Shown piece after piece: positions 47,428 through 59,346 of a stretch of 64,000 bases of DNA (positions are counted from its first letter, which is position 1; each line of letters opens with the position of its first letter). The translations under genes were made by a program, and so were the position numbers. The stretch comes from Paenibacillus sp. JDR-2 (GTDB lineage Bacteria > Bacillota > Bacilli > Paenibacillales > Paenibacillaceae), in contig NC_012914.1 in assembly GCF_000023585.1 (NCBI RefSeq), positions 6,207,501 through 6,271,500 of the forward strand, read 5' to 3'. Below the pieces are notes generated by a model that worked only from the letters and a program-made list of their open reading frames with translations, was not told the origin of the DNA and searched no databases.

Positions 47428-48105
47428 CTAATGCTCCACTAAACGCCCTTCCTCCAGATACAAAACACGGTCGCATAACGGAAGAACCCGTTCATCGTGG
47501 GTAACCATAATAGCGGCCTTGCCCTGCTCCTTAGCCTCGCCCGCAATCATGCGCACAACATCCATCCCGCGGCTTGCGTCGAGGCTGGCCGTTGGTTCGT
47601 CCGCAAGCAACACGGCTGGATCATTCATCAGCGCTCTGGCGATTGCAACGCGCTGGCGTTCTCCCCCGGACAGCTTCTCCGGATAGGCGCTGCGGCGATG
47701 GGTCAAGCCTAGCTTCTGAAGCAGCTCCCTCGCCCTGACCGTTGCCTTCGATTTGTCCATGCCTCCCTGCTTCGCCACGAACAACAGCTGCTCTTCCACT
47801 TTCAAATACGGGATCAGATTGGCGCTTTGAAAAATAAACCCAAGCTTATGAAGCCTCATGTCCGACAGCTCCTGATGAGCTTTGCCGATGACCGATTGTC
47901 CGTCAACGAGTACCTCGCCGCTTGTTGGCTCGAGAAGCGCTCCCGCAATGGAAAGGAACGTGCTTTTCCCGGAGCCTGACGGCCCCATTACGGCAACAAG
48001 CTCGCCTTCCGCAACGTTTAAATTCAGATTATCCAGGACTAAACGCTGCGTGCCGCCATCCTCGAACGAATGCGTAATATTTTGCAAAACGATCCGTTGT
48101 CTCAT
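47428..48105 (-). CDS. hrtA: Haem-efflux ABC transporter ATP-binding protein (HrtA-like)
   Basis: A 225-residue ATPase that powers export by the HrtB-like permease. Walker A is MGPSGSGKSTFLS, the signature LSGGERQRVAIARAL, Walker B VLLADEPTASLD. ATG 48105 (GGGAGG upstream) overlaps the permease stop as ATGA. The assignment as haem efflux rests on the HrtB-like partner and the HssRS-like pair upstream. Gene order is hssR-hssS-hrtB-hrtA on one strand. Confidence 0.85.
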   Translation of the reverse strand: MRQRIVLQNITHSFEDGGTQRLVLDNLNLNVAEGELVAVMGPSGSGKSTFLSIAGALLEPTSGEVLVDGQSVIGKAHQELSDMRLHKLGFIFQSANLIPYLKVEEQLLFVAKQGGMDKSKATVRARELLQKLGLTHRRSAYPEKLSGGERQRVAIARALMNDPAVLLADEPTASLDASRGMDVVRMIAGEAKEQGKAAIMVTHDERVLPLCDRVLYLEEGRLVEH

Positions 48106-49214
48106 GCTGCCGTCCTCCCTATCGCATCCAAGGCGTTTATTCTGCTCACTTTCCATACGGATAGCAAGGAGCCTGCCAGCGACATGGCCATAAAAGCGCC
48201 GCTTGTAAGAGCAAGCGTAGAGGCGGGAAGCTGAAACGGCATGCCGCTAGGCAATACCGATTCCAACGCTTGAACCAGAAGCACGCTGATGGTCAAGCTT
48301 CCCAGGCATAAGAGCAGCACTTGCAAAGCCACGCTTCCGGCAAGGTAAGAGGCGCGTGTACCGATAGCCTTCAGGATACCGAATTGGCTGCTCTTCTGAA
48401 TCGTAATGACATAAAAAAATACCGCCAGGACAAACGCCGAAATGACAAACAGGAACACAATCATCATCATTAGCGAACCCTGCTCTTCCTTATAGCCGGG
48501 TATTGCCGAGACAGCCTCCGATTTCGTCACGACCTCGTTATCCGGCAAGGCTTCGGCAAGGCGCTCGGCCTGCTGCTTGCTGGCCTTAACCGCAATGGCG
48601 CTGTAGGTTGTGTCGGTTGGCATCCCGCTCCTAGCCGCCGCCACCTGCTGAAGCTGCTGCCAGTCATGCTCGCTTAGAAATACGGCGGGGGAATGACTGA
48701 ACGATTCCCGGCTAACAAAGCCGCCAACCGTCCATTTCATGCCGGAAGCCTGATCAACAAGCGTTGAACCGATGCGAACTCCCGAATCCTTTAACTTGCT
48801 GTCGACAAGCACGGAACCGACACCGGCCTCTGTAAGTGCACTCCCCTCAACTACTGGCGGCGTAAGCCAGCCTTCAGGCTCCACGGCAAGCAATGTCACA
48901 TCAAGCTTATTCCCTTCCAGGGTTACGGTAGTCATCCGGACGCCAAGCGGCTGCGCGTTTTTCTCGCCGGCGATCGACTTGGCCCGTTCCAGAGCCTCCA
49001 CTCCAACCTGAGAGCGGGTAAACCGATGATTGGAATCCTTCTCCATTACAAAATGCGTAGCGTCCATATTTTCTATCGATGCCGCGTTGTCGTAAGCGAG
49101 TCCCCGCGCAAGTCCCGTAACGAACAGGACCAGAAAAGAGACCAGCAGCATAATCGTTGCGATAAGCGTATAGCGGACTTTAGCAAACCTCATTTCCCGT
49201 ATAGCCAAATACAT
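48102..49214 (-). CDS. hrtB: Haem-efflux ABC transporter permease (HrtB-like)
   Basis: A 370-residue FtsX/MacB-fold permease with an N-terminal helix (residues 12-35), a large extracytoplasmic domain and three C-terminal helices. It resembles staphylococcal HrtB at both ends: MYLAIREMRFAKVRYTLI at the start, VFFYVITIQKSSQFGILKAI in the first C-terminal helix. Such permeases export toxic haem. GGGAGG precedes ATG 49214. An HssR-type direct repeat lies 40-59 bases upstream. Confidence 0.87.
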   Translation of the reverse strand: MYLAIREMRFAKVRYTLIATIMLLVSFLVLFVTGLARGLAYDNAASIENMDATHFVMEKDSNHRFTRSQVGVEALERAKSIAGEKNAQPLGVRMTTVTLEGNKLDVTLLAVEPEGWLTPPVVEGSALTEAGVGSVLVDSKLKDSGVRIGSTLVDQASGMKWTVGGFVSRESFSHSPAVFLSEHDWQQLQQVAAARSGMPTDTTYSAIAVKASKQQAERLAEALPDNEVVTKSEAVSAIPGYKEEQGSLMMMIVFLFVISAFVLAVFFYVITIQKSSQFGILKAIGTRASYLAGSVALQVLLLCLGSLTISVLLVQALESVLPSGMPFQLPASTLALTSGAFMAMSLAGSLLSVWKVSRINALDAIGRTAA

Positions 49215-49253
49215 GTTGCTTCCCTCCCTTTGATGGCTCAAGTGTAGGAAGCG

Positions 49254-49273
49254 AAAATGAACGGCGCGTGAAC
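49254..49273 (-). promoter_or_regulatory. HssR-type direct repeat before hrtB
   Basis: Reverse strand GTTCACGCG-CC-GTTCATTTT: two GTTCA half-sites with an 11-base period, as in the staphylococcal HssR site GTTCATATT-N2-GTTCATATT. It lies in the 65-base gap between hssS and hrtB, so hrtBA probably have their own haem-induced promoter. Confidence 0.75.
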
Positions 49274-49279
49274 GAATCA

Positions 49280-50659
49280 TTACAAATCGGGAAGGCTGAC
49301 TGTAATACGAGTGCCCGCTCCGGGCGAGCTTTCGACTTCGATGCGCCCACCGTGCAGCTGCACGATCTTTTTCACGATAGCGAGTCCAAGGCCAGTCCGC
49401 CCCGAAGTCCGCTCGCGGGCACGGTCAACCCGGTAAAAACGGTCAAACAGAAAAGGAATATGCTCAGGCGGGATTCCCTCCCCCGTATCCGAGACTACGA
49501 TAACGATATCGGACAACGTCTTTTCCGCGAGCACCTCAATGCTTCTCCCGGGCGGAATATAGTTGATGGCATTGCCAAGCAGATTCATCCACACCTGCTG
49601 CAGCAGCACCTCATCGCCATAAATCGCAATGGAGTCGGGAACGGACAGCTTAAGCAGCAAATCCTTCTCCTCCAGCTGCCACTGCAGAACCTGCACGGCT
49701 TGGCGAATATGTTTATAGAGGGAAAAATGCTTTTTATTTAAAGCCTCTTCGCCTTGCTCGAGCGAAGAAAGAAGCAGCAGTTGCTTGCTGAGGATAGAGA
49801 GATGGCGGCTTTCCGCTTCAATAATATCCGCATAATGCTTGCGTTCCTCGCTTGGAAGCTCTTGCTCCCTTAGCACGGCGGCAAACCCCTGAATCGAGGT
49901 AAGCGGCGATTGAATTTCATGCGACACATTCGAAACGAACTGCTGGCGGGTCTGATCGACGCGCTCGAGCTCCTTGCTCATGGTCATGAAATGCTCGGCA
50001 AGCTGGCCGATCTCATCGCGTCTTCTCGTTGGCAGGCGAAGGTTGTAATTGCCTTGCGCGATACGCTTGGTCGCCTCCGATAGTCTTGTGATCGGCTTGA
50101 CCAAATAGCGGGTACTGATCAGGAACAAGAGAATACTGATTATTACCGTATACAAACCGACCAGGGCAAAAAAGGTGCGAAGCTCGCCAAACTGCAAAAG
50201 AACGTCCGGCCGCATGAACAAGGCATAGCTTTTCCCCGAAGACTGCACAAGCACGCCTACCGTATTGCTTAACCGGTTATCGAAAAACCCGGTAATAAAC
50301 GGCTTGTTCGGGAACTGCGCCACTCCGTGGTACACTTCTCCGCCGAGCACGAGCGCTACGGCCTGTTGATCCAGATCCTGCTCGCGAAAGCTCCGGCCGT
50401 AAAAATGCGTTTCTCCTTGACCGTCCGTCACGTAAATCTCGTAACCAAGCGAAGCCGCATTTTGCAAATAACGCTCCATCCCGGCAGGCTCCGTCTCGAT
50501 AAAGCTCTCCATCTGCTGGGCAATCCCCACCAGCTTCTCATCGTTGAAAGACTTCAGCTTCATATGGTAATACAGGTTGGAAACCAGAAATCCGATTATG
50601 CTGCTGACCAGTATCACTGCCGCGGTGATCAGAAATACCCGGAAGTACAGAGATTTCAT
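49280..50659 (-). CDS. hssS: Haem-responsive sensor histidine kinase (HssS-like)
   Basis: A 459-residue membrane kinase. It has helices at about 7-29 and 163-182 around an extracytoplasmic domain with HFYGRSFRE, FITGFFDN and ALFMRPD, motifs shared with HssS. HAMP follows, then phosphoacceptor His247 in NVSHEIQSPLTS and the ATPase domain (NLLGNAINYIPPG, DTGEGIPPEHIPFLFDRFYR). ATGA overlap with hssR. It senses haem stress by analogy with staphylococci. Confidence 0.88.
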   Translation of the reverse strand: MKSLYFRVFLITAAVILVSSIIGFLVSNLYYHMKLKSFNDEKLVGIAQQMESFIETEPAGMERYLQNAASLGYEIYVTDGQGETHFYGRSFREQDLDQQAVALVLGGEVYHGVAQFPNKPFITGFFDNRLSNTVGVLVQSSGKSYALFMRPDVLLQFGELRTFFALVGLYTVIISILLFLISTRYLVKPITRLSEATKRIAQGNYNLRLPTRRRDEIGQLAEHFMTMSKELERVDQTRQQFVSNVSHEIQSPLTSIQGFAAVLREQELPSEERKHYADIIEAESRHLSILSKQLLLLSSLEQGEEALNKKHFSLYKHIRQAVQVLQWQLEEKDLLLKLSVPDSIAIYGDEVLLQQVWMNLLGNAINYIPPGRSIEVLAEKTLSDIVIVVSDTGEGIPPEHIPFLFDRFYRVDRARERTSGRTGLGLAIVKKIVQLHGGRIEVESSPGAGTRITVSLPDL

Positions 50660-51333
50660 TTTCCCTTCACCTCAACCTTGTACCCGATCCCCCGTACCGT
50701 CTGGATCGTAAAATCTTCGGCGTAATCGGCAAAGCGCTGGCGGAGCCGCTTAATATGCACGTCTACGGTCCGGTCATCCCCTTCGAAATCTGCCGCCCAC
50801 ACGAGTCGAATCAGCTCCTCGCGGGAAAACAGCCGTCCCGGGTATTGAGCAAGCTGGGCGAGAAGCTCGAATTCTTTCATCGGCAGCAGAAGAACCGATT
50901 GGCCGTCGGTGACCTCTACGTTTTTGCGGTCAATCGTAATGCGGTTCATGCGGATCAGATCATGGGATACCTGATTATAACGGCGGAACAACGCTTTAAC
51001 CCGAAACAGCAGCTCCTCCGGTTCAAAAGGCTTGGTCACGTAATCATCGGTTCCCCTCAGATAACCCTGCTCTTTATCCGACAGCTGATCTTTAGCCGTC
51101 AGCATGATAATCGGGATATCATAACGCTCCCGGATGTACTCGCATAGCTCAAATCCGTCTATCCGCGGCATCATTACATCAATAATGGCCAGATTTATCG
51201 GCGCGCGCTGCATGACCTCCACCGCCTCGGCCCCGTCTTGCGCTTCATACACCTGATAGCCTTCGCGGGTCATCACGAAACGGACAAGCGCTCTAATATT
51301 CGGATCGTCGTCAGCCAGGAGCAAATGATACAT
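50656..51333 (-). CDS. hssR: Haem-responsive response regulator (HssR-like), OmpR family
   Basis: A 225-residue regulator. The receiver has Asp52 in IIDVMMPRIDG and Lys in YVTKPFEPEEL; the winged-helix output domain has GRLFSREELIRLVWAADFEG and RTVDVHIKRLRQRF. Its closest resemblance is to HssR (YDIPIIMLTAKDQLSDKE). ATG 51333 has AGGAGG 8 bases upstream; an in-frame start at 51399 is rejected. The direct repeat before hrtB is its likely target. Confidence 0.88.
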   Translation of the reverse strand: MYHLLLADDDPNIRALVRFVMTREGYQVYEAQDGAEAVEVMQRAPINLAIIDVMMPRIDGFELCEYIRERYDIPIIMLTAKDQLSDKEQGYLRGTDDYVTKPFEPEELLFRVKALFRRYNQVSHDLIRMNRITIDRKNVEVTDGQSVLLLPMKEFELLAQLAQYPGRLFSREELIRLVWAADFEGDDRTVDVHIKRLRQRFADYAEDFTIQTVRGIGYKVEVKGK

Positions 51334-51428
51334 CCTAGCAACCTCCTGTCCTATTCCAGTATTTTTCGTTGATAGCATAGCATAATACCGGACAAACACA
51401 AACAGGACCTGGCTTCAACCGGCCAAGC

Positions 51429-51467
51429 AAAAAAAAGTCCCAGGGCATCAAGGATCCCCTGGGACTT
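51429..51467 (-). terminator. Terminator of the sulfonate-type operon
   Basis: AAGTCCCAGGG / CCCCTGGGACTT hairpin with eight T on the reverse strand, 16 bases after the last ferredoxin gene. Confidence 0.92.
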
Positions 51468-51483: not shown

Positions 51484-51873
51484 TCAGTTCGTTTGACTTC
51501 CGCCCCGAACGACTTCCGATACGCCTTGCGGACGGACCGTACGGGGAGGCAGGATCCGGTCGATAAACGGCGTTGTGTCGATGGCCGCAATCCTCGTGCG
51601 TCCCGGTCCCCAGCCGATAATGGCTCGCCAGCTGCCGAGCACGCCTTGCCCGGCCAGCTCCTGCTCGTTCACTTCCACGGTCTGCTCGGCATAGGGCGAG
51701 ACATACAGCGCATCCGCCGGGCAATAAACTTCGCAAATAAAGCAGGTCTGGCAGTCGCTTTGCCGCGCAATGACGGGGATGCCGTCCTCGCCTTTATCGA
51801 AAACATTGGTCGGGCATACCTTAACGCAGATGCTGCAGGAAATGCACCGTTCCTCGCTGACTAATTCAATCAT
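51484..51873 (-). CDS. 2[4Fe-4S] ferredoxin, second copy
   Basis: A 129-residue ferredoxin with two cluster motifs, CISCSICVKVCP and CQTCFICEVYCP, that each bind one [4Fe-4S]. A C-terminal extension (GWGPGRTRIAAIDTTPF) is partly shared with the 55441 paralogue. It overlaps the flavoprotein gene (ATGA), so the two are made together and probably form a complex like AprAB, passing electrons to or from FAD. Last gene of the operon. Confidence 0.9.
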   Translation of the reverse strand: MIELVSEERCISCSICVKVCPTNVFDKGEDGIPVIARQSDCQTCFICEVYCPADALYVSPYAEQTVEVNEQELAGQGVLGSWRAIIGWGPGRTRIAAIDTTPFIDRILPPRTVRPQGVSEVVRGGSQTN

Positions 51874-53504
51874 CCGGCCTGCACCTCCCCGGAAGCAGCC
51901 GCTGCCCCGGTTGGTACAACGTCACTCCCCGAACTCGGTACCTTCTCCGCCCGGACACGGATCTCTTCGAGTCCCGAGACGAGCAGCCGGTACTGCTGCT
52001 CTTCGTCCTGACCGGGATATTCCGCCAGCACATGCAGGCCGCCGCTCCGGGATTCCTTCCGCGACAACGCTGCCGTATACATCCAACGGGCAGTTGCCGC
52101 CATCGCCGCGGTCTCGCGGGCGCGCACCTGTTCCAGCATGGATTGCGGCGCTAGATCATTCACCCGCTTCCATACCTCATCCAGCTGACGCAAAGCCAGC
52201 TTCAGCCCCCGTTCGCTGCGGAAATAATTAATGTCGAGCGGAAGAACCTGACTTTGTATATCCTTGATCAGCTCCTGCGAAGACACTGCGGAAGAAGCCG
52301 GCACCGTGCCAAGCCCGTAGCGCCCGGCTGGCTTCAAGTCGCGTTCCGCCGCGCTGCTCCGGTGAGACAAAGCATAAGCGGCAGCGCCTTTGCCCGCCCA
52401 GGTTCCCGAGCAGATCGCCCACGATGCGTTAAAGGCGCCTCCGCCGGATGCCGAACCGGTAATACGCTCGCGTGTTGCCGCATCCCCTGCGGCGAACAAT
52501 CCTCCTACCGTTGTGCTGCAATCATCGCCTACAATCCGGATGCCGCCCGTCCCTCTTACGGTCCCTTCATAACGCAGCGTGAGCGGGAAGGGCTCGGTAA
52601 ACACGTCAATCCCCGCGCGGTCATACGGCAGGAAAAAGATCGCATGGGATTTTCGTAAGATGGCCTGCTTCTCCGGAGTATCCGCTTTGTTCATAATCGC
52701 ATACACGGGTCCCTTGAGCAGAGCCTCCGCCAGAAAATCTCCCTGGCGCCCCGCAATAATCTCTTGGCCGGCATGATCGTAATAAGTTGCCCATCCAAGC
52801 AGTCTTGAGCGGGTATTGGAGCCGAAAGCCGGAGAAGGAGCATACTTGCGGGTAAATTCCATCCCCGACAGCTCTACGCCAAGCTCGCCTGCCATTAAGT
52901 AACCGTCGCCGGTCAATACATTGCAGCCTAGTCCATTGCTCAGAAAAGCGCAGCCGCCCGTTGCGATAACAACGGCATTCGCGCGCACCTCCCAGGTCTG
53001 GTTATCCTGCCGGGACACGCCGCGAGCGCCGCCTACGCCAAACTCATCAACCAGCAGCTCAAGAGCCGGCGACTGGTCGAGCACTTTGACCCCGGCACGC
53101 TTTACGACCTTGCGCATAATCGACATATATTCGGGACCGTGAAGATGATCGCGCATCGGAGTGCCGTTCTCGTCGCGGACGAACGGATAGCCCCACTGCT
53201 CGATCAGCTCCATGTTGGTATACACTTGGTCAAGCACCCGGTGAATCCATGCCGGCTCCGCCAAATACCCGCCCTGCTTCATCCGCTCATCCACGGCGCG
53301 CTTTCTCATTTCTTCGTCAGGCGGCAAATAAAGCAGATTCGTGCCTCCCGGAGCCGTTGCGCCGCTGCTGCCAAGGAAGCCCTTGTCTGCCAGTACGACC
53401 TTGGCGCCGTTAGTGGCCGCGCTCCAAGCCGCCCAAGCTCCGGCAGGACCGCCGCCAATCACAAGCACATCCGCGGTCAGCCGCCGCTCTGCCGAATGAC
53501 TCAT
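51870..53504 (-). CDS. FAD-dependent oxidoreductase, AprA/fumarate-reductase fold, second copy
   Basis: A 544-residue flavoprotein. The N-terminal dinucleotide motif is DVLVIGGGPAGAWAAWSA, then GFLGSSGATAPGG (no histidine at the position used for covalent FAD in SdhA), then a capping domain, then RGTGGIRI and GLFAAGDAATRERI near the C-terminal FAD site. It is clearly paralogous to the 55770 product: HGPEYMSIMRKVVKRAGVK versus QGPEYMRLMRKLVKKAGVK. ATGA overlaps with both neighbours. Substrate unknown; an organosulfur compound is inferred from context. Confidence 0.88.
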   Translation of the reverse strand: MSHSAERRLTADVLVIGGGPAGAWAAWSAATNGAKVVLADKGFLGSSGATAPGGTNLLYLPPDEEMRKRAVDERMKQGGYLAEPAWIHRVLDQVYTNMELIEQWGYPFVRDENGTPMRDHLHGPEYMSIMRKVVKRAGVKVLDQSPALELLVDEFGVGGARGVSRQDNQTWEVRANAVVIATGGCAFLSNGLGCNVLTGDGYLMAGELGVELSGMEFTRKYAPSPAFGSNTRSRLLGWATYYDHAGQEIIAGRQGDFLAEALLKGPVYAIMNKADTPEKQAILRKSHAIFFLPYDRAGIDVFTEPFPLTLRYEGTVRGTGGIRIVGDDCSTTVGGLFAAGDAATRERITGSASGGGAFNASWAICSGTWAGKGAAAYALSHRSSAAERDLKPAGRYGLGTVPASSAVSSQELIKDIQSQVLPLDINYFRSERGLKLALRQLDEVWKRVNDLAPQSMLEQVRARETAAMAATARWMYTAALSRKESRSGGLHVLAEYPGQDEEQQYRLLVSGLEEIRVRAEKVPSSGSDVVPTGAAAASGEVQAG

Positions 53505-54298
53505 TTCAGCTTCTCCGCAAAAAAGCTGATCGTAGCTTGCAGCGCCGTTTGCAGCTGCGCGTTTGCCCCTCCATACGGATGTACCGTATTAAAGGTATGG
53601 TCGGCTCCTTGCACCAGCACATATTGCTGATGCGGAGCTTCTTCTTGGAAGTAGCGCAGCTGCTCCAGCAGCGGCTCCCGATCCAGGTCTCCCTGCACAA
53701 TCAAGGCTGGAAGCTGCAGACCGGTAAAAGCTTCGCGTATGTTAAATCGCGCTTCATTCCTCTGCCAATCCTCCTGGACCGTCAGATCCAGCAGGCTGAC
53801 GGTTTCGCCGGCCGGCAGCTGGCGGGATGGAGGAGGTCCTCCGTTCCACACTGCCAATGCGGCTATTTGTTCCGGCTTCTCGCCGGCAGTCAGGATGCTG
53901 CTTCCCCCTGCTCTGCTGTGCCCAAGCAGCCCGACCTTTGCCCGGTCAGCCGCTTGAGCCTGCGGCAAATCGCCGTTCAATACCGCGCGAAGCACCGTCT
54001 CCAAATCGTCAAGCTCCTGGGAGAAGGTTGCTGCGGCCGCGATCGAAGCTTCCTCCAAGCCATCTTCCCTGGCAGCAATACGCGAGAAATTGTAGCTGAC
54101 CGCATAGAAGCCCTCTTCCGCCAAACGGCTCGTCACATCCGGCCAGAATGCCCAATCCTTATACCCTCTAAAGCCATGACTTACGATAATAACCGGATGC
54201 GGCTTGCCGTCATCCAAGATTTTCACTTCGCCCTGCAAACGGATGCCCTTGCTCGAATACAACGTAAAGGACTGGACGGTCAGCGTATCTTTTCCCAT
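53501..54298 (-). CDS. Alpha/beta hydrolase (dienelactone-hydrolase-like)
   Basis: A 265-residue cytosolic serine hydrolase: nucleophile Ser128 in LLGHSRAGGSS, Asp in IVQGDLDREPL, His in VQGADHTF. HGFRGYKDWAFW is the oxyanion loop. ATG 54298 with AGGAGAGG is chosen over an in-frame start at 54343. Its stop overlaps the second flavoprotein start. It may release a product from an ester-type sulfur compound, but this is only inferred from the operon. Confidence 0.87.
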   Translation of the reverse strand: MGKDTLTVQSFTLYSSKGIRLQGEVKILDDGKPHPVIIVSHGFRGYKDWAFWPDVTSRLAEEGFYAVSYNFSRIAAREDGLEEASIAAAATFSQELDDLETVLRAVLNGDLPQAQAADRAKVGLLGHSRAGGSSILTAGEKPEQIAALAVWNGGPPPSRQLPAGETVSLLDLTVQEDWQRNEARFNIREAFTGLQLPALIVQGDLDREPLLEQLRYFQEEAPHQQYVLVQGADHTFNTVHPYGGANAQLQTALQATISFFAEKLK

Positions 54299-54327
54299 AA
54301 CAATTCCTCTCCTATCCGATCTATCGT

Positions 54328-55401
54328 TTACTTCACTTCCCAATCCTCGATCTTGTAATCCTTCTTCGCCAGCCCTTCCTCGACAAGGAAGTCCTTCGTC
54401 CCCGTAATCCGGGTAATTCCTTCCGCCGGGAACGGCTCTTCCGTAATGTAGCTGATCGGGCTGATCTTCTTCGCCAGCTCAACCGTTGTCTTGTTCAGAT
54501 CGGCGATGAACTGATAATACTCGTCCTCATGCTGCTTCAAATCCTCGATGGCCTTCTGGCGCGCTTCATTCCACACCTTCGGGAAATCCGGGAACTTCTC
54601 CAGGTAGCTCTCCGAGACAACCGTTACGCTTGTTCCGTGCAGCTCGGGATGCCTGGTGGAATCGTCGATCAACGTATAACCCTGCGCCAACTGCTTCTCC
54701 GCGTTAAAACCGGAGTTCGTCATCGCGTCCACATCGCCCCGGGCAAGCGCCGCCTGACCGTCGGGAGCAAGCATATGGACCAGCTTATAGTCCTTTACCC
54801 CTGCCTGCTTCAGCAGACCAACAACGTAACGGTGCATGTAGGAGCCTTTTTGAATCGCAATCGTCTTGCCCTTCAGCTCTTCGACCGTCTTTGGTCCGTT
54901 AGGACCCGAGATTAAATAGCCGACATTCGTTATGTTCGTTTGATTGATCAGTCTTGTCTTCGCTCCGGAAGCTGCCGCAATAATCGCAGGCGTGTCCCCC
55001 AAGCCGCCAAAATCAAGCCGTCCGCTGATCAGCGATTCCGTCTGGTCCGGACCGTTCGGGAAGCCCGTCAGCTTCACTTCTTCGATGCCGTATTTTTTCA
55101 GTTCCGCTTGAATGATGCCTTTATAAAAGCCCCAGCCCTCCGCTCCGCCGGGAAGATTCTTATCATTGCTTCCGATGTAACCGTAGTTGAGAACGGCCGG
55201 AACCTTGCTGTTCTTGTCCGCGGCGGCTGCCGTCTCCGTGCCCGTTGATGCGCTGGCGCCGGCATTGGCGCTGTCCTTCGCGTTCCCATTCGAGCTATTG
55301 TTAGCTCCGCATGCCTGCAGCCATGCCGTTGCCATAATCAGCACCGCGATCAGCGCTAGTCTAACCGGCCCGCGTAATCCTCTTTGTTTTTCTCTGCTCA
55401 T
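54328..55401 (-). CDS. SsuA/TauA-like sulfonate-binding lipoprotein
   Basis: A 357-residue solute-binding protein of the nitrate/sulfonate/taurine class. Signal peptide with lipobox LQAC (Cys31), then an Asn/Ala/Ser-rich linker, then YGYIGSNDKNL and GRLDFGGLGDTPAIIAAASG, the ligand-loop signature of SsuA-type proteins. It is the only binding protein of the operon and must serve the two permeases encoded upstream. The ligand is not provable from sequence. Confidence 0.9.
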   Translation of the reverse strand: MSREKQRGLRGPVRLALIAVLIMATAWLQACGANNSSNGNAKDSANAGASASTGTETAAAADKNSKVPAVLNYGYIGSNDKNLPGGAEGWGFYKGIIQAELKKYGIEEVKLTGFPNGPDQTESLISGRLDFGGLGDTPAIIAAASGAKTRLINQTNITNVGYLISGPNGPKTVEELKGKTIAIQKGSYMHRYVVGLLKQAGVKDYKLVHMLAPDGQAALARGDVDAMTNSGFNAEKQLAQGYTLIDDSTRHPELHGTSVTVVSESYLEKFPDFPKVWNEARQKAIEDLKQHEDEYYQFIADLNKTTVELAKKISPISYITEEPFPAEGITRITGTKDFLVEEGLAKKDYKIEDWEVK

Positions 55402-55440
55402 ATCAAACAGACCCCTCTCGGCAGTTAAGTAATGTGTTGG

Positions 55441-55773
55441 TTAAAATTTTGCGTACTGGGATAACCGGTACATATAGTCATGCGAAGCGACAGGCGTCCT
55501 GCCTTTGCCCCAGCCGACCTTTTCCCGGTATCCTCCAAGCAAGCCTTGCTGCTCGGCTTCCTCTTCCGAAATGCCGATAACCTGCTCCGAATCCGGCGCA
55601 ACGTACAACGCGTCAACCGGGCAGTACAGCTCGCACATAAAGCAGGTCTGGCAGTCGTCCTGCCTGGCGATGACGGGAATCCCGTCATCGCCCCGGTCGA
55701 ATACGTTCGTTGGGCATACCGATACGCATTGATTGCAGGACACGCACCGGCTCTCGCTGACAACCTCAATCAT
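55441..55773 (-). CDS. 2[4Fe-4S] ferredoxin, first copy
   Basis: A 110-residue ferredoxin with CVSCNQCVSVCP and CQTCFMCELYCP cluster motifs, overlapping the first flavoprotein gene (ATGA). The first 90 residues align with the 51484 paralogue (IEVVSESRCVSC versus IELVSEERCISC). The C-terminus is shorter. Confidence 0.9.
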   Translation of the reverse strand: MIEVVSESRCVSCNQCVSVCPTNVFDRGDDGIPVIARQDDCQTCFMCELYCPVDALYVAPDSEQVIGISEEEAEQQGLLGGYREKVGWGKGRTPVASHDYMYRLSQYAKF

Positions 55774-57389
55774 GGTGCAACAACCTCCTTCTCGGTACGC
55801 GCTTCTTCATTGACGGCTTCCGGTTTCACCCACACTTGATCCAATCCGCCGCTGATAAGCCGGTAATGCTGGCCGGCATCCTGCGTTGGGAAGTCTTCGC
55901 GCTTGTGCATGCCGCGGGTCTCCGTCCGGGCAAGCGCGGAATTGTACATCCATCTTGCGGTTGCGGTCATCGCTTGCGCTTCGCGTGCCTTCACCCCGCC
56001 TGCCGAACGCTCCACCGCCTGATTCCGCTGCTCCTTCCACAGTCCGTCAAGCCGCTGCAGCGAACCCTTCAGCCCTTGCTCGGTTCGGAACAAGTTGCGG
56101 TCGTACGGCGCTACCTCCTCCTGCACGGCACGGACAATCTCCTCCGTCTTGGAAGAAGACGCTGCAGCCGAACTCGTAATAACGGAAGTGGAAGCACTTT
56201 GCAGCTTGCGGCCCGCCGCATGCTCGCCAAGCTTTTTCGCATACGCGGCCGCGCCTTCTCCGGCAAAAGAACCGGAGGACATCGCCCATGCCGCGTTATG
56301 ACTGCCGCCGCCGGTAAAACCGCCGCAGATCAGCTCGCGTGTTGCCGCATCGCCAGCCGCATAGAGGCCAGGCACCGAAGTGGCGCAGGTCTCGTCGGTA
56401 ATGCGGATACCGCCTGTTCCGCGGACGGTGCCTTCCAGCCTCAGCGTTACCGGGAATAAATCGCTGAACGGATCAATTCCGCGGCGGTCGAACGGCAGGA
56501 AGAAGTTCGTCTGGTTCACCCGCAGCAGCGGCTTGATCTCTTCCGGAGCAAGATCCAGCTTTGCGTACACCTGGCGGCCTTCCAGCAGCTTGCGGGCAAT
56601 AATGGAGCGTCCGCGCTTCGAGCCTGCTCCCTCTACCGGCGTTCCGTCCTCATAATAGAAGGAAGCGTAGGAGTAGTAGGCGGTTTTCGTAACCGAAGAA
56701 AAAGTCGGACTAATCGCATACGCGTTCGAGAATTCCATGCCCGACAGCTGAGCGCCAGTCTCCGCCGCAAGCAAGTAACCGTCACCGGTCAGCACGTTGC
56801 AGCCAAGCGCCTTGCTTAAGAAGGCGCAGCCGCCGGTTGCGATCACAACGGCTCCGGCATGCACCGTCCAGGCATCGCCGGTTTGCGTTTGCACGCCGGA
56901 TGCGCCTCCAACGCCGTGTTCGTCCACAAGCAGCTCGAGGGCGGGACTATGATCCAAAATTTTGACTCCCGCCTTCTTCACCAGCTTGCGCATCAGGCGC
57001 ATATATTCGGGACCTTGAAGTCCCCGCTTGTGAAGCTCGCCGTCATCATCCTTCGGAAAAGGATATCCGGCATGGCCAAGCCGGTTCATATTCTCGTACG
57101 TCCGGTCAAGCACCCGGTCCATCCAGCGGTGCTCGGCAAGCCGGCCGCCCATTTCGTAACGGCTGGCCTTTGCTTCCTCGCGCAGCCGATCCTCCGGCTT
57201 CACATACCAGACGCCGGTGCCCGAAGGTGCCGTCGCTCCGCTTGAGCCGCAATATCCTTTGTCTGCCAGAATAACCTTGGCGCCTTGCGAAGCCGCCGTG
57301 ATGGCCGCCCACGTCCCCGCGGGCCCGCCTCCGATAACAAGAACATCCGCTTGCAATTGAATTGCACCGTTTGGCATGAATATCGACAT
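55770..57389 (-). CDS. FAD-dependent oxidoreductase, AprA/fumarate-reductase fold, first copy
   Basis: A 539-residue flavoprotein with DVLVIGGGPAGTWAAITAA, GYCGSSGATAPSG and the C-terminal GLYAAGDAATRELICGG. Lacks the flavin-linking histidine of SdhA, as AprA does. Makes an overlapping pair with the 55441 ferredoxin. Resembles adenylylsulfate reductase alpha subunits in partner type and in lacking covalent FAD, but this is not proof of that activity. GAGGGGG precedes ATG 57389. Confidence 0.88.
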   Translation of the reverse strand: MSIFMPNGAIQLQADVLVIGGGPAGTWAAITAASQGAKVILADKGYCGSSGATAPSGTGVWYVKPEDRLREEAKASRYEMGGRLAEHRWMDRVLDRTYENMNRLGHAGYPFPKDDDGELHKRGLQGPEYMRLMRKLVKKAGVKILDHSPALELLVDEHGVGGASGVQTQTGDAWTVHAGAVVIATGGCAFLSKALGCNVLTGDGYLLAAETGAQLSGMEFSNAYAISPTFSSVTKTAYYSYASFYYEDGTPVEGAGSKRGRSIIARKLLEGRQVYAKLDLAPEEIKPLLRVNQTNFFLPFDRRGIDPFSDLFPVTLRLEGTVRGTGGIRITDETCATSVPGLYAAGDAATRELICGGFTGGGSHNAAWAMSSGSFAGEGAAAYAKKLGEHAAGRKLQSASTSVITSSAAASSSKTEEIVRAVQEEVAPYDRNLFRTEQGLKGSLQRLDGLWKEQRNQAVERSAGGVKAREAQAMTATARWMYNSALARTETRGMHKREDFPTQDAGQHYRLISGGLDQVWVKPEAVNEEARTEKEVVAP

Positions 57390-57486
57390 TTCGTTTTTCC
57401 CCCTCGAATAATTAATTGAATATTTCGACTATTGTCGAGTAAAACAGCCGCTCCGGCGAGAACAGCTCGGGAATGCCGTTCAAGCA

Positions 57487-58377
57487 TTAGCCCTTATAGC
57501 TGTCGCGCCAGTTCAGCCAGCGAATCTCAACGCTCTTCATGATGGAATCAATCAGCTTGCCGATTACCGCGAATATAATAATGCCAACGAAAATAACGGA
57601 GGTTTCCGAGTTCTGTTTGGCCTCATTGATAAGGAAGCCAATACCGGACCGGGAGCCGATCAGCTCCGCTACGACAAGCCCAATCCAGGATACCGCAAGC
57701 GAGATTCGCACACCGATCAGAATATCGGGAAGCGCAGCCGGAAGGATCAGCCGGGTCAGCCGCTTGAGCGGACTGAAGCCCAGAATGCGCGATACTTCAA
57801 ACAGCTTATTGTCCACATTGCGGATGCCTAGGAACGTGTTGATATAAAGGGGGAAAAACGAGCCGGATACGATAATGGCGATTTTGGACGTTTCCCCGAA
57901 ACCAAACCACAGGATAATAAGCGGAGCAATGGCGAGATGCGGGACAAGCCGTAACACTTGGAGGCTTGGATCAAGCAGGTATTGAGCTTTCCGGAACAGC
58001 CCTGTCAGTAATCCGAACAGAAGTCCCGCCGCCCCTCCGATCAGAAAACCCAGACCGGCCCGCCCCATGCTGACGAGCAGATGATGAAGGAGATTTTCCG
58101 AGGTGGCCAGCGTCCCGAATGCTTGAAGAATCGAGGCCGGCGACGGCATAAACATAGGCGAGATATACCCGGCCGAAGCGGCGATCTGCCACAATACAAG
58201 AAGCACGGCCGGAATAGCCGCCCCTATGGCAATGTCTTTCAGGATGGCTGCCGCAAGCTTGGTTGACCAACGCCGCTTACGCTTTGCAGTTCCTTTTCCC
58301 GCGGCCCTCTCCCCTCCGGCTAACCCCGCTTCCGGTGCCGCTTGAGGAGATACAACCGCTTCGAGTGAATTGCTCAT
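57487..58377 (-). CDS. SsuC/TauC-like ABC permease, second copy
   Basis: A 296-residue permease with about six helices. The EAA-like loop reads RLILPAALPDILIGVRISLA, and LIGSRSGIGFLINEAKQ is typical for sulfonate/nitrate permeases. It has a longer basic N-terminal leader (KGTAKRKRRWSTK) than its paralogue. It lies 18 bases after the first permease gene. The two could form a heterodimer; most family members are homodimers. Confidence 0.9.
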   Translation of the reverse strand: MSNSLEAVVSPQAAPEAGLAGGERAAGKGTAKRKRRWSTKLAAAILKDIAIGAAIPAVLLVLWQIAASAGYISPMFMPSPASILQAFGTLATSENLLHHLLVSMGRAGLGFLIGGAAGLLFGLLTGLFRKAQYLLDPSLQVLRLVPHLAIAPLIILWFGFGETSKIAIIVSGSFFPLYINTFLGIRNVDNKLFEVSRILGFSPLKRLTRLILPAALPDILIGVRISLAVSWIGLVVAELIGSRSGIGFLINEAKQNSETSVIFVGIIIFAVIGKLIDSIMKSVEIRWLNWRDSYKG

Positions 58378-58395
58378 GATTTCCTTGCCTCCCTT

Positions 58396-59193
58396 CTAGC
58401 CGTTGTAACGGTCCTTCCATCTGAGCAGCCGGCGCTCGATCAAGGCGAGCAGCGTGTCTGTGAACAGCCCAAGAACGGCGAAGATAAAGATTCCTACGAA
58501 GACCACCGGCGTATCCGCAAACTGCCTGGCATCCGACATCATGTAACCGATCCCGGAGGTTGAGGCAATCAGCTCCGCAACAACCAGGCCAAGCCAGGAT
58601 AACCCGATCGACAAGCGTGCTCCCAGAATAATATTCGGCAGAGCCGCCGGCAGGATCAGCCTTGTGATCTGCTTCAAGCGGCTAAAGCCCAGCACTCTGG
58701 CTACTTCGAACAGCTTGTTGTCCACATTGCGGATTCCGAGGAACGTATTGATGTACAGCGGGAAAAAGGCGCTTTTGGCAATCAGCAGCACTTTCGATTC
58801 CTCGCCGATGCCGAACCATAAAATAAACAATGGCACAACGGCAAGGCTTGGGATCATCCGGATCATCTGAATCGTGGGATCAAGCAGCTTTTCCGTCCGT
58901 CGGAACAAGCCAACCGCAATGCCGAACAGCAAGGCCAGCGAGCCTCCAAGCGCAAAACCCAGCAAAACCCTCGTCACGCTGATCTGGATATTCGACCATA
59001 GGTCGCCTGACGATGCCAGGGAGACTCCGGCCTCCACAATCGCATAAGGAGTCGGGAACAGCAGCTCCGATATATAGCCGTAATGCCCAAGCACCTGCCA
59101 TAAGACCAGCAGCGTTACCGGAAATACAAGAGCCAGCCCCGTTAACGTCAGCTTGCCCGGCGTTCTCCCCGCTGCCGCAGTTTGACTGCTCAT
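58396..59193 (-). CDS. SsuC/TauC-like ABC permease, first copy, first operon gene
   Basis: A 265-residue permease with about six helices; RLILPAALPNIILGARLSIG is the EAA-like loop. Clearly paralogous to the next gene: FPLYINTFLGIRNVDNKLFE occurs in both. ATG 59193 has GGTGAT at 5 bases; an in-frame GTG at 59205 behind GGGGAA is an alternative. No ATP-binding gene occurs in the operon, so the importer must use an ATPase from elsewhere. Confidence 0.88.
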   Translation of the reverse strand: MSSQTAAAGRTPGKLTLTGLALVFPVTLLVLWQVLGHYGYISELLFPTPYAIVEAGVSLASSGDLWSNIQISVTRVLLGFALGGSLALLFGIAVGLFRRTEKLLDPTIQMIRMIPSLAVVPLFILWFGIGEESKVLLIAKSAFFPLYINTFLGIRNVDNKLFEVARVLGFSRLKQITRLILPAALPNIILGARLSIGLSWLGLVVAELIASTSGIGYMMSDARQFADTPVVFVGIFIFAVLGLFTDTLLALIERRLLRWKDRYNG

Positions 59194-59216
59194 CGTTATC
59201 ACCACTTTCCCCTAAA

Positions 59217-59257
59217 ATAAAAAAGAGGCATCCTCATATAAAATAAGAGAATGCCTC
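59217..59257 (-). terminator. Leader terminator / attenuator before the sulfonate-type operon
   Basis: GAGGCAT-C-CTC / GAG-A-ATGCCTC hairpin, six T on the reverse strand, ending just 24 bases before the first start codon and about 60 bases after the predicted transcription start. A terminator placed inside a leader suggests attenuation. No T-box or SAM-riboswitch signature was found before it, though a small hairpin CCGTT-CT-AACGG precedes it. Confidence 0.6.
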
Positions 59258-59288
59258 CGTTAGAACGGTGGACGTTTTTATTAAATTC

Positions 59289-59308
59289 GTTAATTCCCAT
59301 TGATTAAC
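59289..59308. promoter_or_regulatory. Dyad over the start site of the sulfonate-type operon (CymR-like half-site)
   Basis: Reverse strand GTTAATC-AATGG-GAATTAAC. It contains GGAATT, the conserved core of CymR sites in sulfur-regulated Bacillota operons, and lies at about +3 to +22. The left half fits CymR poorly, so the binding protein is uncertain. Confidence 0.45.
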
Positions 59309-59317
59309 TGTGGTATA

Positions 59318-59346
59318 AGAGTAGCATGGGGATTTTACAGTGTCAA
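59318..59346 (-). promoter_or_regulatory. Promoter of the sulfonate-type operon
   Basis: Reverse strand -35 TTGACA (59346-59341), 17-base spacer, -10 TACTCT (59323-59318). Good -35, moderate -10. Confidence 0.6.

Follow-up and report, generated by a model that had tools for sequence, protein, structure and literature searches.

The closest described relatives of the system considered here are the asf gene clusters. In Pseudomonas putida S-313, asfA mutants lose the use of aromatic sulfonates and keep that of aliphatic ones, and the portion of the review PMC4267179 that deals with asf describes it as a reductase/ferredoxin system. The asfRAB genes of Cupriavidus metallidurans are located on CHR2, with AsfA and AsfB corresponding to Rmet_4334/5 (according to the relevant section of PMC2864759). 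The asfA gene also serves as a marker for the use of aromatic sulfonates in soils, for which the pertinent passages of two sources name Proteobacteria and Actinobacteria (PMC9694294, PMC4267179). An operon of this kind is present in the Gram-positive soil bacterium Paenibacillus sp. JDR-2, whose genome comprises 7.18 Mb in a single contig (99.99% complete). It lies in a stretch of 64,000 nucleotides (NC_012914.1, positions 6,207,501 to 6,271,500), further referred to as the window, and consists of eight genes on the minus strand, read from 59205 to 51484. With reasonable but far from full confidence, it is interpreted as an Asf-type operon for sulfur starvation, in which AsfA would act on the substrate itself and a switch in the leader RNA would control expression.

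All features of the operon lie on the minus strand. The first two genes encode SsuC-like permeases recognized by domain matches, permease A (permA, 58396–59205) and permease B (permB, 57487–58377). These are followed by an AsfA-type flavoprotein of lineage 1 (AsfA1, 55770–57389), identified by its homologue on CHR2 of C. metallidurans and by its place in the tree, its AsfB-type 2[4Fe-4S] ferredoxin (55441–55773), and an SsuA/NMT1-like substrate-binding lipoprotein (54328–55401; domain match, LQAC lipobox). The next gene encodes an alpha/beta hydrolase of the dienelactone hydrolase type (53501–54343; domain match), whose TTG start at 54343 is uncertain, an ATG being found 15 codons further in. 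The operon ends with a flavoprotein of lineage 2 (AsfA2, 51870–53504), which forms a separate clade, and a second AsfB-type 2[4Fe-4S] ferredoxin (51484–51873). The gaps between the genes are, in order, 18, 97, -4, 39, -16, -4 and -4 bases. Each flavoprotein, with FAD_binding_2/Succ_DH_flav_C domains, overlaps its ferredoxin as ATGA, and each ferredoxin carries two CxxCxxCxxxC motifs, eight cysteines together. Identity within the operon reaches 52.5% over 520 residues between the flavoproteins, 64.6% between the ferredoxins and 55.6% between the permeases. The operon terminator at 51429–51467 is strong (fold z -3.76), and a simple terminator scan did not list it. In all these points the initial annotation, which had proposed the eight genes with their domains, the overlaps, the homologous flavoproteins and the terminator, is borne out. 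The promoter it placed at 59318–59346 holds in part: the -35 box is a perfect TTGACA (59341–59346), a 17-nt spacer and a TG precede the -10 box, and the stretch is conserved in the window and five close loci, but the -10 TACTCT matches at only 3 of 6 positions and was not listed by a program promoter scan of the window. A second terminator-like hairpin, between the promoter and the first gene, had not been mentioned.

Both flavoprotein/ferredoxin pairs are filed, by sequence similarity, as predicted members of the AsfAB protein family, which makes the asf arylsulfonate system the closest known one, contrary to the earlier statement that no characterized pathway has this gene set. AsfA1 finds one matching place on CHR2 of C. 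metallidurans CH34 at 59-60% identity (59.1% over 98%), and its equation with Rmet_4334/5 relies on the replicon and this single match there, not on a locus tag. AsfA2 finds two places on the same replicon, the best at 49.0% over 95%. In a careful tree of 33 sequences, the Paenibacillus AsfA2 proteins form a clade with those of S. meliloti, Roseateles, Paracoccus methylovorus, two Sphingobium and one Nostoc plasmid protein, with a support (94/99) slightly below the tree's own star mark. AsfA1 and the C. metallidurans protein stand apart from this clade, and the deeper forks of the tree are not resolved. A FastTree of 118 rows places all 33 AsfA2 rows in a single clade (98), and in a comparison of 77 AsfA1 with 33 AsfA2 rows, made without the loci of cyanobacteria and C. 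metallidurans, 23 positions are fixed differently. AsfA1 and AsfA2 thus represent two kinds of long standing and did not arise by local duplication. The age of the lineages and the 23 fixed differences make it plausible that the two AsfAB modules differ in substrate specificity. By flavoprotein, the closest named relatives among the matches listed are Paenibacillus glycanilyticus NBRC 16618 and Paenibacillus sp. BK033 (98%).

The search for the same gene set in other genomes, which had been proposed beforehand as a check, found the operon repeatedly in Paenibacillaceae. A scan of genome contigs gave at least 576 confirmed relatives among at least 595 stretches, from which the best 80 loci were kept and compared by a blastp panel that dropped SsuB matches below 40% identity, hydrolase matches below 35% identity and any match of 80 bits or less. 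The recurring order is ssuB-permA-permB-asfA1-asfB1-ssuA-(hydrolase)-asfA2-asfB2, with asfA2-asfB2 sometimes ahead of asfA1. AsfA1 is present in 80 of 80 loci by construction; a ferredoxin is found in 80, an SsuA-like protein in 69, two permeases in 57, ssuB in 57, asfA2/asfB2 in 33, a nitroreductase in 19 and the hydrolase in 13. The nitroreductase was considered as a missing part of the operon and rejected: it occurs in these 19 loci, yet its best homologue in the JDR-2 genome shows 33% identity over 75 residues. Within about 16 kb, L142 and L143 each carry four asfA-type genes accompanied by ferredoxins; L142 also contains three SBP_bac_1 lipoproteins and a nitroreductase, and in L143 (genome G001) one asfA copy was matched with an internal stop and another only partly. 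In L145, L059 and L066, a PALP-family (cysK-like) gene and a redoxin gene lie near asfA.

There is no ATP-binding cassette (ABC) ATPase gene inside the operon, as the initial annotation stated, but the absence is specific to a clade, and elsewhere the operon usually starts with ssuB. It is carried by 46 of the 57 two-permease loci, and the 11 loci without it include the window's five nearest relatives (L007, L008, L009, L010 and L069), in which an EmrB-type major facilitator superfamily (MFS) gene occupies its position. Because the nearest relatives are without ssuB while most two-permease loci have it, the missing ATPase is read as a probable loss of ssuB in the clade of the window. The sole ATPase of the window that matches the SsuB query (47428–48156, 36% identity) lies beside an FtsX-type permease gene. 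These two genes belong to a set with a response regulator and a histidine kinase (47428–51399), located on the same strand past the operon terminator; the neighbors of the operon are this regulator/kinase pair and an MFS efflux gene. Elsewhere in the genome there are two ssuB genes, each 68% identical to a cognate operon ssuB, one in an operon with TauD (tau) and the other together with two permease genes and that of a luciferase-type monooxygenase (dmo). The ATPase is likely borrowed from the tau or the dmo operon. As a relocated cognate ATPase, the dmo ssuB was discarded, its placement as sister to the ssuB of the L011 operon being rejected by the approximately unbiased (AU) test (p 0.0001); for the tau ssuB the same placement was not rejected (AU p 0.09), and the tree shows no such grouping. 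The transport proteins did not reach the cut-offs of the SsuC (236 and 245 bits vs 347) and SsuA (119 vs 163.5 bits) models.

To our knowledge, the chemistry of AsfAB is not yet settled. In the proposed pathway, the SsuA-like lipoprotein would bind an organic sulfonate or a related organosulfur acid, which the permease A/B pair would import, powered by the SsuB-type ATPase of the tau or dmo operon. AsfB would then hand low-potential electrons to the flavin adenine dinucleotide (FAD) of AsfA, and AsfA itself would open the C-S bond of the substrate, the sulfite set free going into cysteine synthesis. Each AsfAB pair probably has substrates of its own, presumably aromatic sulfonates in the case of lineage 1. 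The sulfur scavenging by SsuA/SsuC-type uptake and two related modules that had been suggested for this operon gains support from the AsfAB homology, from the gene contexts in other bacteria and from the leader element shared with further sulfur genes.

The alternative that survives best, possible although less probable than direct catalysis, is that AsfAB only supplies reducing power: it would take low-potential electrons to reduce a flavin or an oxygenase, and the C-S bond would be cut by luciferase-type sulfur monooxygenases whose genes lie elsewhere in the genome. Several observations weigh against a substrate-acting AsfA and in favor of such a feeder. In the published model, AsfAB serves as a system for electron transfer and asf complements ssu (in the portion of PMC4267179 on asf). 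A luciferase-type monooxygenase gene overlaps asfA in two Sphingobium plasmids (L136:6652-9997 and L141:6649-9823), whose AsfA proteins fall on the AsfA2 side of the tree. Paracoccus methylovorus, Pseudonocardia and R. etli also have monooxygenase genes close to AsfAB; the tree joins lineage 2 to the Sphingobium and P. methylovorus proteins (94/99), not to those of Pseudonocardia or R. etli. Among the 80 loci, 4 match the first oxygenase/SfnB panel, and 14 further ones of one Paenibacillus branch (L020, L027, L034, L036, L043, L046, L050-L053, L057, L061-L063) carry a luciferase-type monooxygenase gene 2.9-6.2 kb from asfA on the other strand. The JDR-2 genome has eight SsuD matches below the NCBIfam cut-off, and some relatives have the leader element ahead of dmoA-type genes. 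Apart from the feeder question, the proposed pathway is weakened by the AsfA name, which relies on one replicon-level match and not on a tested protein, by the case for ATPase sharing, which is made by similarity alone, and by the lack of a LysR gene (asfR) next to the operon, which is therefore not filed as an asfRABC cluster. On the other side, the window operon contains no oxygenase, 62 of the 80 loci show no oxygenase by two queries, and the 14 genes mentioned are on the other strand. A dependence of AsfA on SsuD was rejected, as no association was found in 51 genomes (SsuD in 8 of 16 with AsfA and 14 of 35 without; Fisher p 0.55). The fold and the many fixed polar residues likewise favor an enzyme that acts on the substrate, and direct catalysis by AsfA remains the preferred reading.

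The second part of the proposal concerns the leader between the promoter and permA. A terminator with a stem from AGGC and a U run (59219–59256, fold z -4.83) ends just before the first gene, and its 5′ arm is overlapped by an antiterminator-like hairpin, GUC-NA-CCGU-tetraloop-ACGG-A-GRC (59253–59273). The terminator-like hairpin is kept in the five close loci, and many other loci have leaders of the same layout. For a comparison, 49 leaders, of which 48 come from the 80 loci, were picked by a pattern fixing C.AC[CT], AG[AG] and a T run, which makes the columns in question invariant from the outset and leaves the other stem positions free. When folded as small hairpin plus terminator, 95.6% of the cells are paired, with a covariation of 0.614 vs 0.260 in shuffled alignments. 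In a second reading, the 5′ flank GUC of the small hairpin pairs with GRY, the initial bases of the terminator arm; here 93.3% are paired and the covariation is 0.495 vs 0.236, while the further pair types do not rise above the shuffles (304/500). The two outer GUC/GRY pairs hold in 36 and 43 of the 49 leaders and, outside asf operons, in 20 and 22 of 29 elements. The two hairpins are mutually exclusive, and in all 49 leaders the terminator is the more stable one (median -14.3 vs -4.9 kcal/mol). In the proposed mechanism, the default state would be off, with the leader folded into the terminator. Under sulfur shortage, a factor, most likely an RNA-binding protein, would stabilize the short overlapping hairpin and let RNA polymerase pass.

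Known leader RNAs do not account for this element. At the gathering score Rfam gave 0 matches in the window and 0 in 20 sources picked since most of them carry the element; SAM-I, T-box and other Rfam leaders were thus not found at that score, and the best match below it over the leader was sok, with 18.5 of 59 bits. A leader peptide with Cys codons was rejected, as the frame open from the ATG has no Cys codons and the ATG is ATA in five aligned relatives. As a candidate CAT-RBD factor for the leader, the genome offers one CAT_RBD match, for which no link to the leader emerged. Inspection by eye revealed no hexaloops of the ANTAR type, marked by A1 and G4, in the leader. In the open-licence literature searched, including the relevant parts of PMC11109978, PMC5670726 and PMC8632094, no description of the element was found. 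The leader is judged, with moderate confidence, to represent an undescribed antitermination RNA that may steer a sulfur-scavenging regulon across the order through a sulfur-responsive RNA-binding factor. A consensus of GUC-NA-CCRN-NNNN-NYGG-A-GRY, whose 3′ arm doubles as the 5′ arm of an intrinsic terminator, is proposed as its fairly probable form. Three asf operons of Cohnella without the element (L024, L032, L038) carry TAATTCCTA...TAGGAATT ahead of permA, and a half site related to it occurs in the window near 59300; the motif resembles CymR boxes.

A model of the element (R1) gave 123 matches at E <=0.5 over 97 sources. It matches the window at 59216–59285 (E 3.2e-14), and in a search of the whole JDR-2 genome the asf operon leader scores best (E 1.3e-13); this leader is a training sequence of the model. 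The 80 loci also supplied 48 of the 49 leaders on which the model was trained. At E <=0.01 there are 95 matches in 64 of the 80 loci, 87 of them at most 400 nt ahead of a gene of the panel, compared to 9.7% of random places, and 80 of these 87 precede ssuB, permA, asfA or asfB. Several operons carry the element twice, ahead of ssuB and of asfA1. In L059 and L145, the cysK-like and redoxin genes are each preceded by their own leader match, some of them weak. The JDR-2 genome has the element ahead of the tau binding-protein gene (E 0.04) and the tau ssuB (E 0.045), and ahead of the dmo ssuB at E 3.3, where it is convincing by place and sequence only. Among genomes of the genus without AsfA, 31 of 35 have R1 matches at E <=0.01; in 30 loci from such genomes, a panel gene lies downstream in 20 and elsewhere in the locus in 5, the panel being partly built from the same loci. 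In relatives the element also stands ahead of metY, cysT, ssuA and cysK-like genes, often several times per genome, and 6 of 10 products scanned passed an NCBIfam cut-off (NtaA/DmoA monooxygenase, homocysteine synthase, CysT, SsuA, NADPH nitroreductase, amidohydrolase). Across the order, 59 of 119 genomes (JDR-2 included) and 17 of 35 genera have matches at E <=1e-4, and 29 further best-scoring loci show a panel gene downstream in 27 and elsewhere in 8.

An origin of the leader hairpins as ordinary terminators belonging to genes upstream, joined by chance to a small hairpin and with no regulatory role, is improbable, although R1 scores owe much to the terminator. In the JDR-2 genome, matches below the two best tau/asf-like ones resemble plain terminators by sequence, including that at 2500608 (E 7.5e-4), which is without the core sequence. 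The antitermination reading is also weakened by the 16 of 80 loci without an R1 match at E <=0.01, which include four of the six Cohnella loci and every one of the five cyanobacterial loci, and by elements ahead of genes with no known sulfur link, such as the AraC regulator of JDR-2 and those in the 10 of 30 loci where the panel gave no match. Such a chance origin is opposed by the covariation of the small hairpin alone, in which pairs 19-29, 20-28 and 21-26 show 10, 14 and 12 two-sided changes, by the pairing of its flank with the terminator arm, and by the position of the matches ahead of panel genes, at times two per operon. Two other JDR-2 matches possess the core sequence. The first (L168, G000:C1:1426712-1426785, 40.7 bits) precedes the AraC gene and apparent sugar-type ABC genes, with no evident sulfur link. 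The second (L169, within G000:C1:6908500-6914500) precedes an operon of a 263-aa protein without a Pfam match, a 1023-aa S-layer homology (SLH) domain protein and a gene named CcdA-like by eye; proteins similar by eye to this set follow the element in L189, L191, L194 and L195.

The nearest solved relatives of the flavoproteins by profile and fold are FrdA/SdhA, NadB and the 3′-phosphoadenosine 5′-phosphosulfate (PAPS) reductase of methanogens, and AprA is further off; families absent from the VIA-align listing are not thereby excluded. Their earlier assignment as AprA-type is too narrow, and the predicted lack of the covalent-FAD histidine agrees with the alignment, in which the motif is absent. 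That they are housekeeping fumarate reductases, which, together with a dedicated ssuB elsewhere, the initial annotation had named as speaking against its proposal, or true adenosine 5′-phosphosulfate (APS) reductases is very improbable despite the shared superfamily, as they miss by far the NCBIfam cut-offs of sdhA/frdA (96.8 and 122.0 bits vs 567.3), of the APS reductase model NF005331 (78.3 and 77.4 vs 557) and of TIGR02061 (lineage 2, 54.5 vs 641.75, with lineage 1 outside the best 25 of the model), do not conserve the HGANRLG stretch of FrdA in the profile alignment, carry no covalent-FAD motif and have SsuA/B/C-type ABC uptake genes beside most copies.

Compared with known systems, the genes represent a variant form of the asf/ssu kind, and their leader is probably an antitermination element, so far undescribed, that serves a sulfur regulon. 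Such a leader, if confirmed, would provide a new switch of bacterial sulfur genes and a handle on an RNA-binding regulator. The large Paenibacillus/Cohnella branch, often with two lineages per operon, broadens the range of the asfA marker; a Gram-positive host without SsuD parts the two published components; and the Sphingobium plasmids with overlapping monooxygenase and AsfA genes offer a natural test system for the partners of AsfAB. The RAT-type antiterminators (LicT/SacT/BglG) are similar in having a short imperfect hairpin that overlaps and excludes a terminator arm, whereas the leader described here differs in sequence and loop layout and precedes sulfur genes. The PAPS reductase alpha subunit of Methanothermococcus (8a8o) and AprAB are FAD proteins of sulfur metabolism from the same superfamily, and the profile match to 8a8o extends end to end, but the identity is about 20%. 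The operon shares an SsuA-like lipoprotein and SsuC-like permeases with SsuABCDE/TauABCD, from which it differs by two permeases, by the absence of an ATPase, SsuD or TauD in the operon and by matches below the NCBIfam cut-offs. The asf clusters of P. putida S-313 and C. metallidurans CH34 are alike in the flavoprotein with an overlapping 2[4Fe-4S] ferredoxin, the SsuA-type protein, the ABC permeases and the sulfur role, whereas the Paenibacillus operon combines two AsfAB lineages, a hydrolase and a leader terminator, without an adjacent LysR gene, ssuB or, in the genome, an SsuD above the cut-off.

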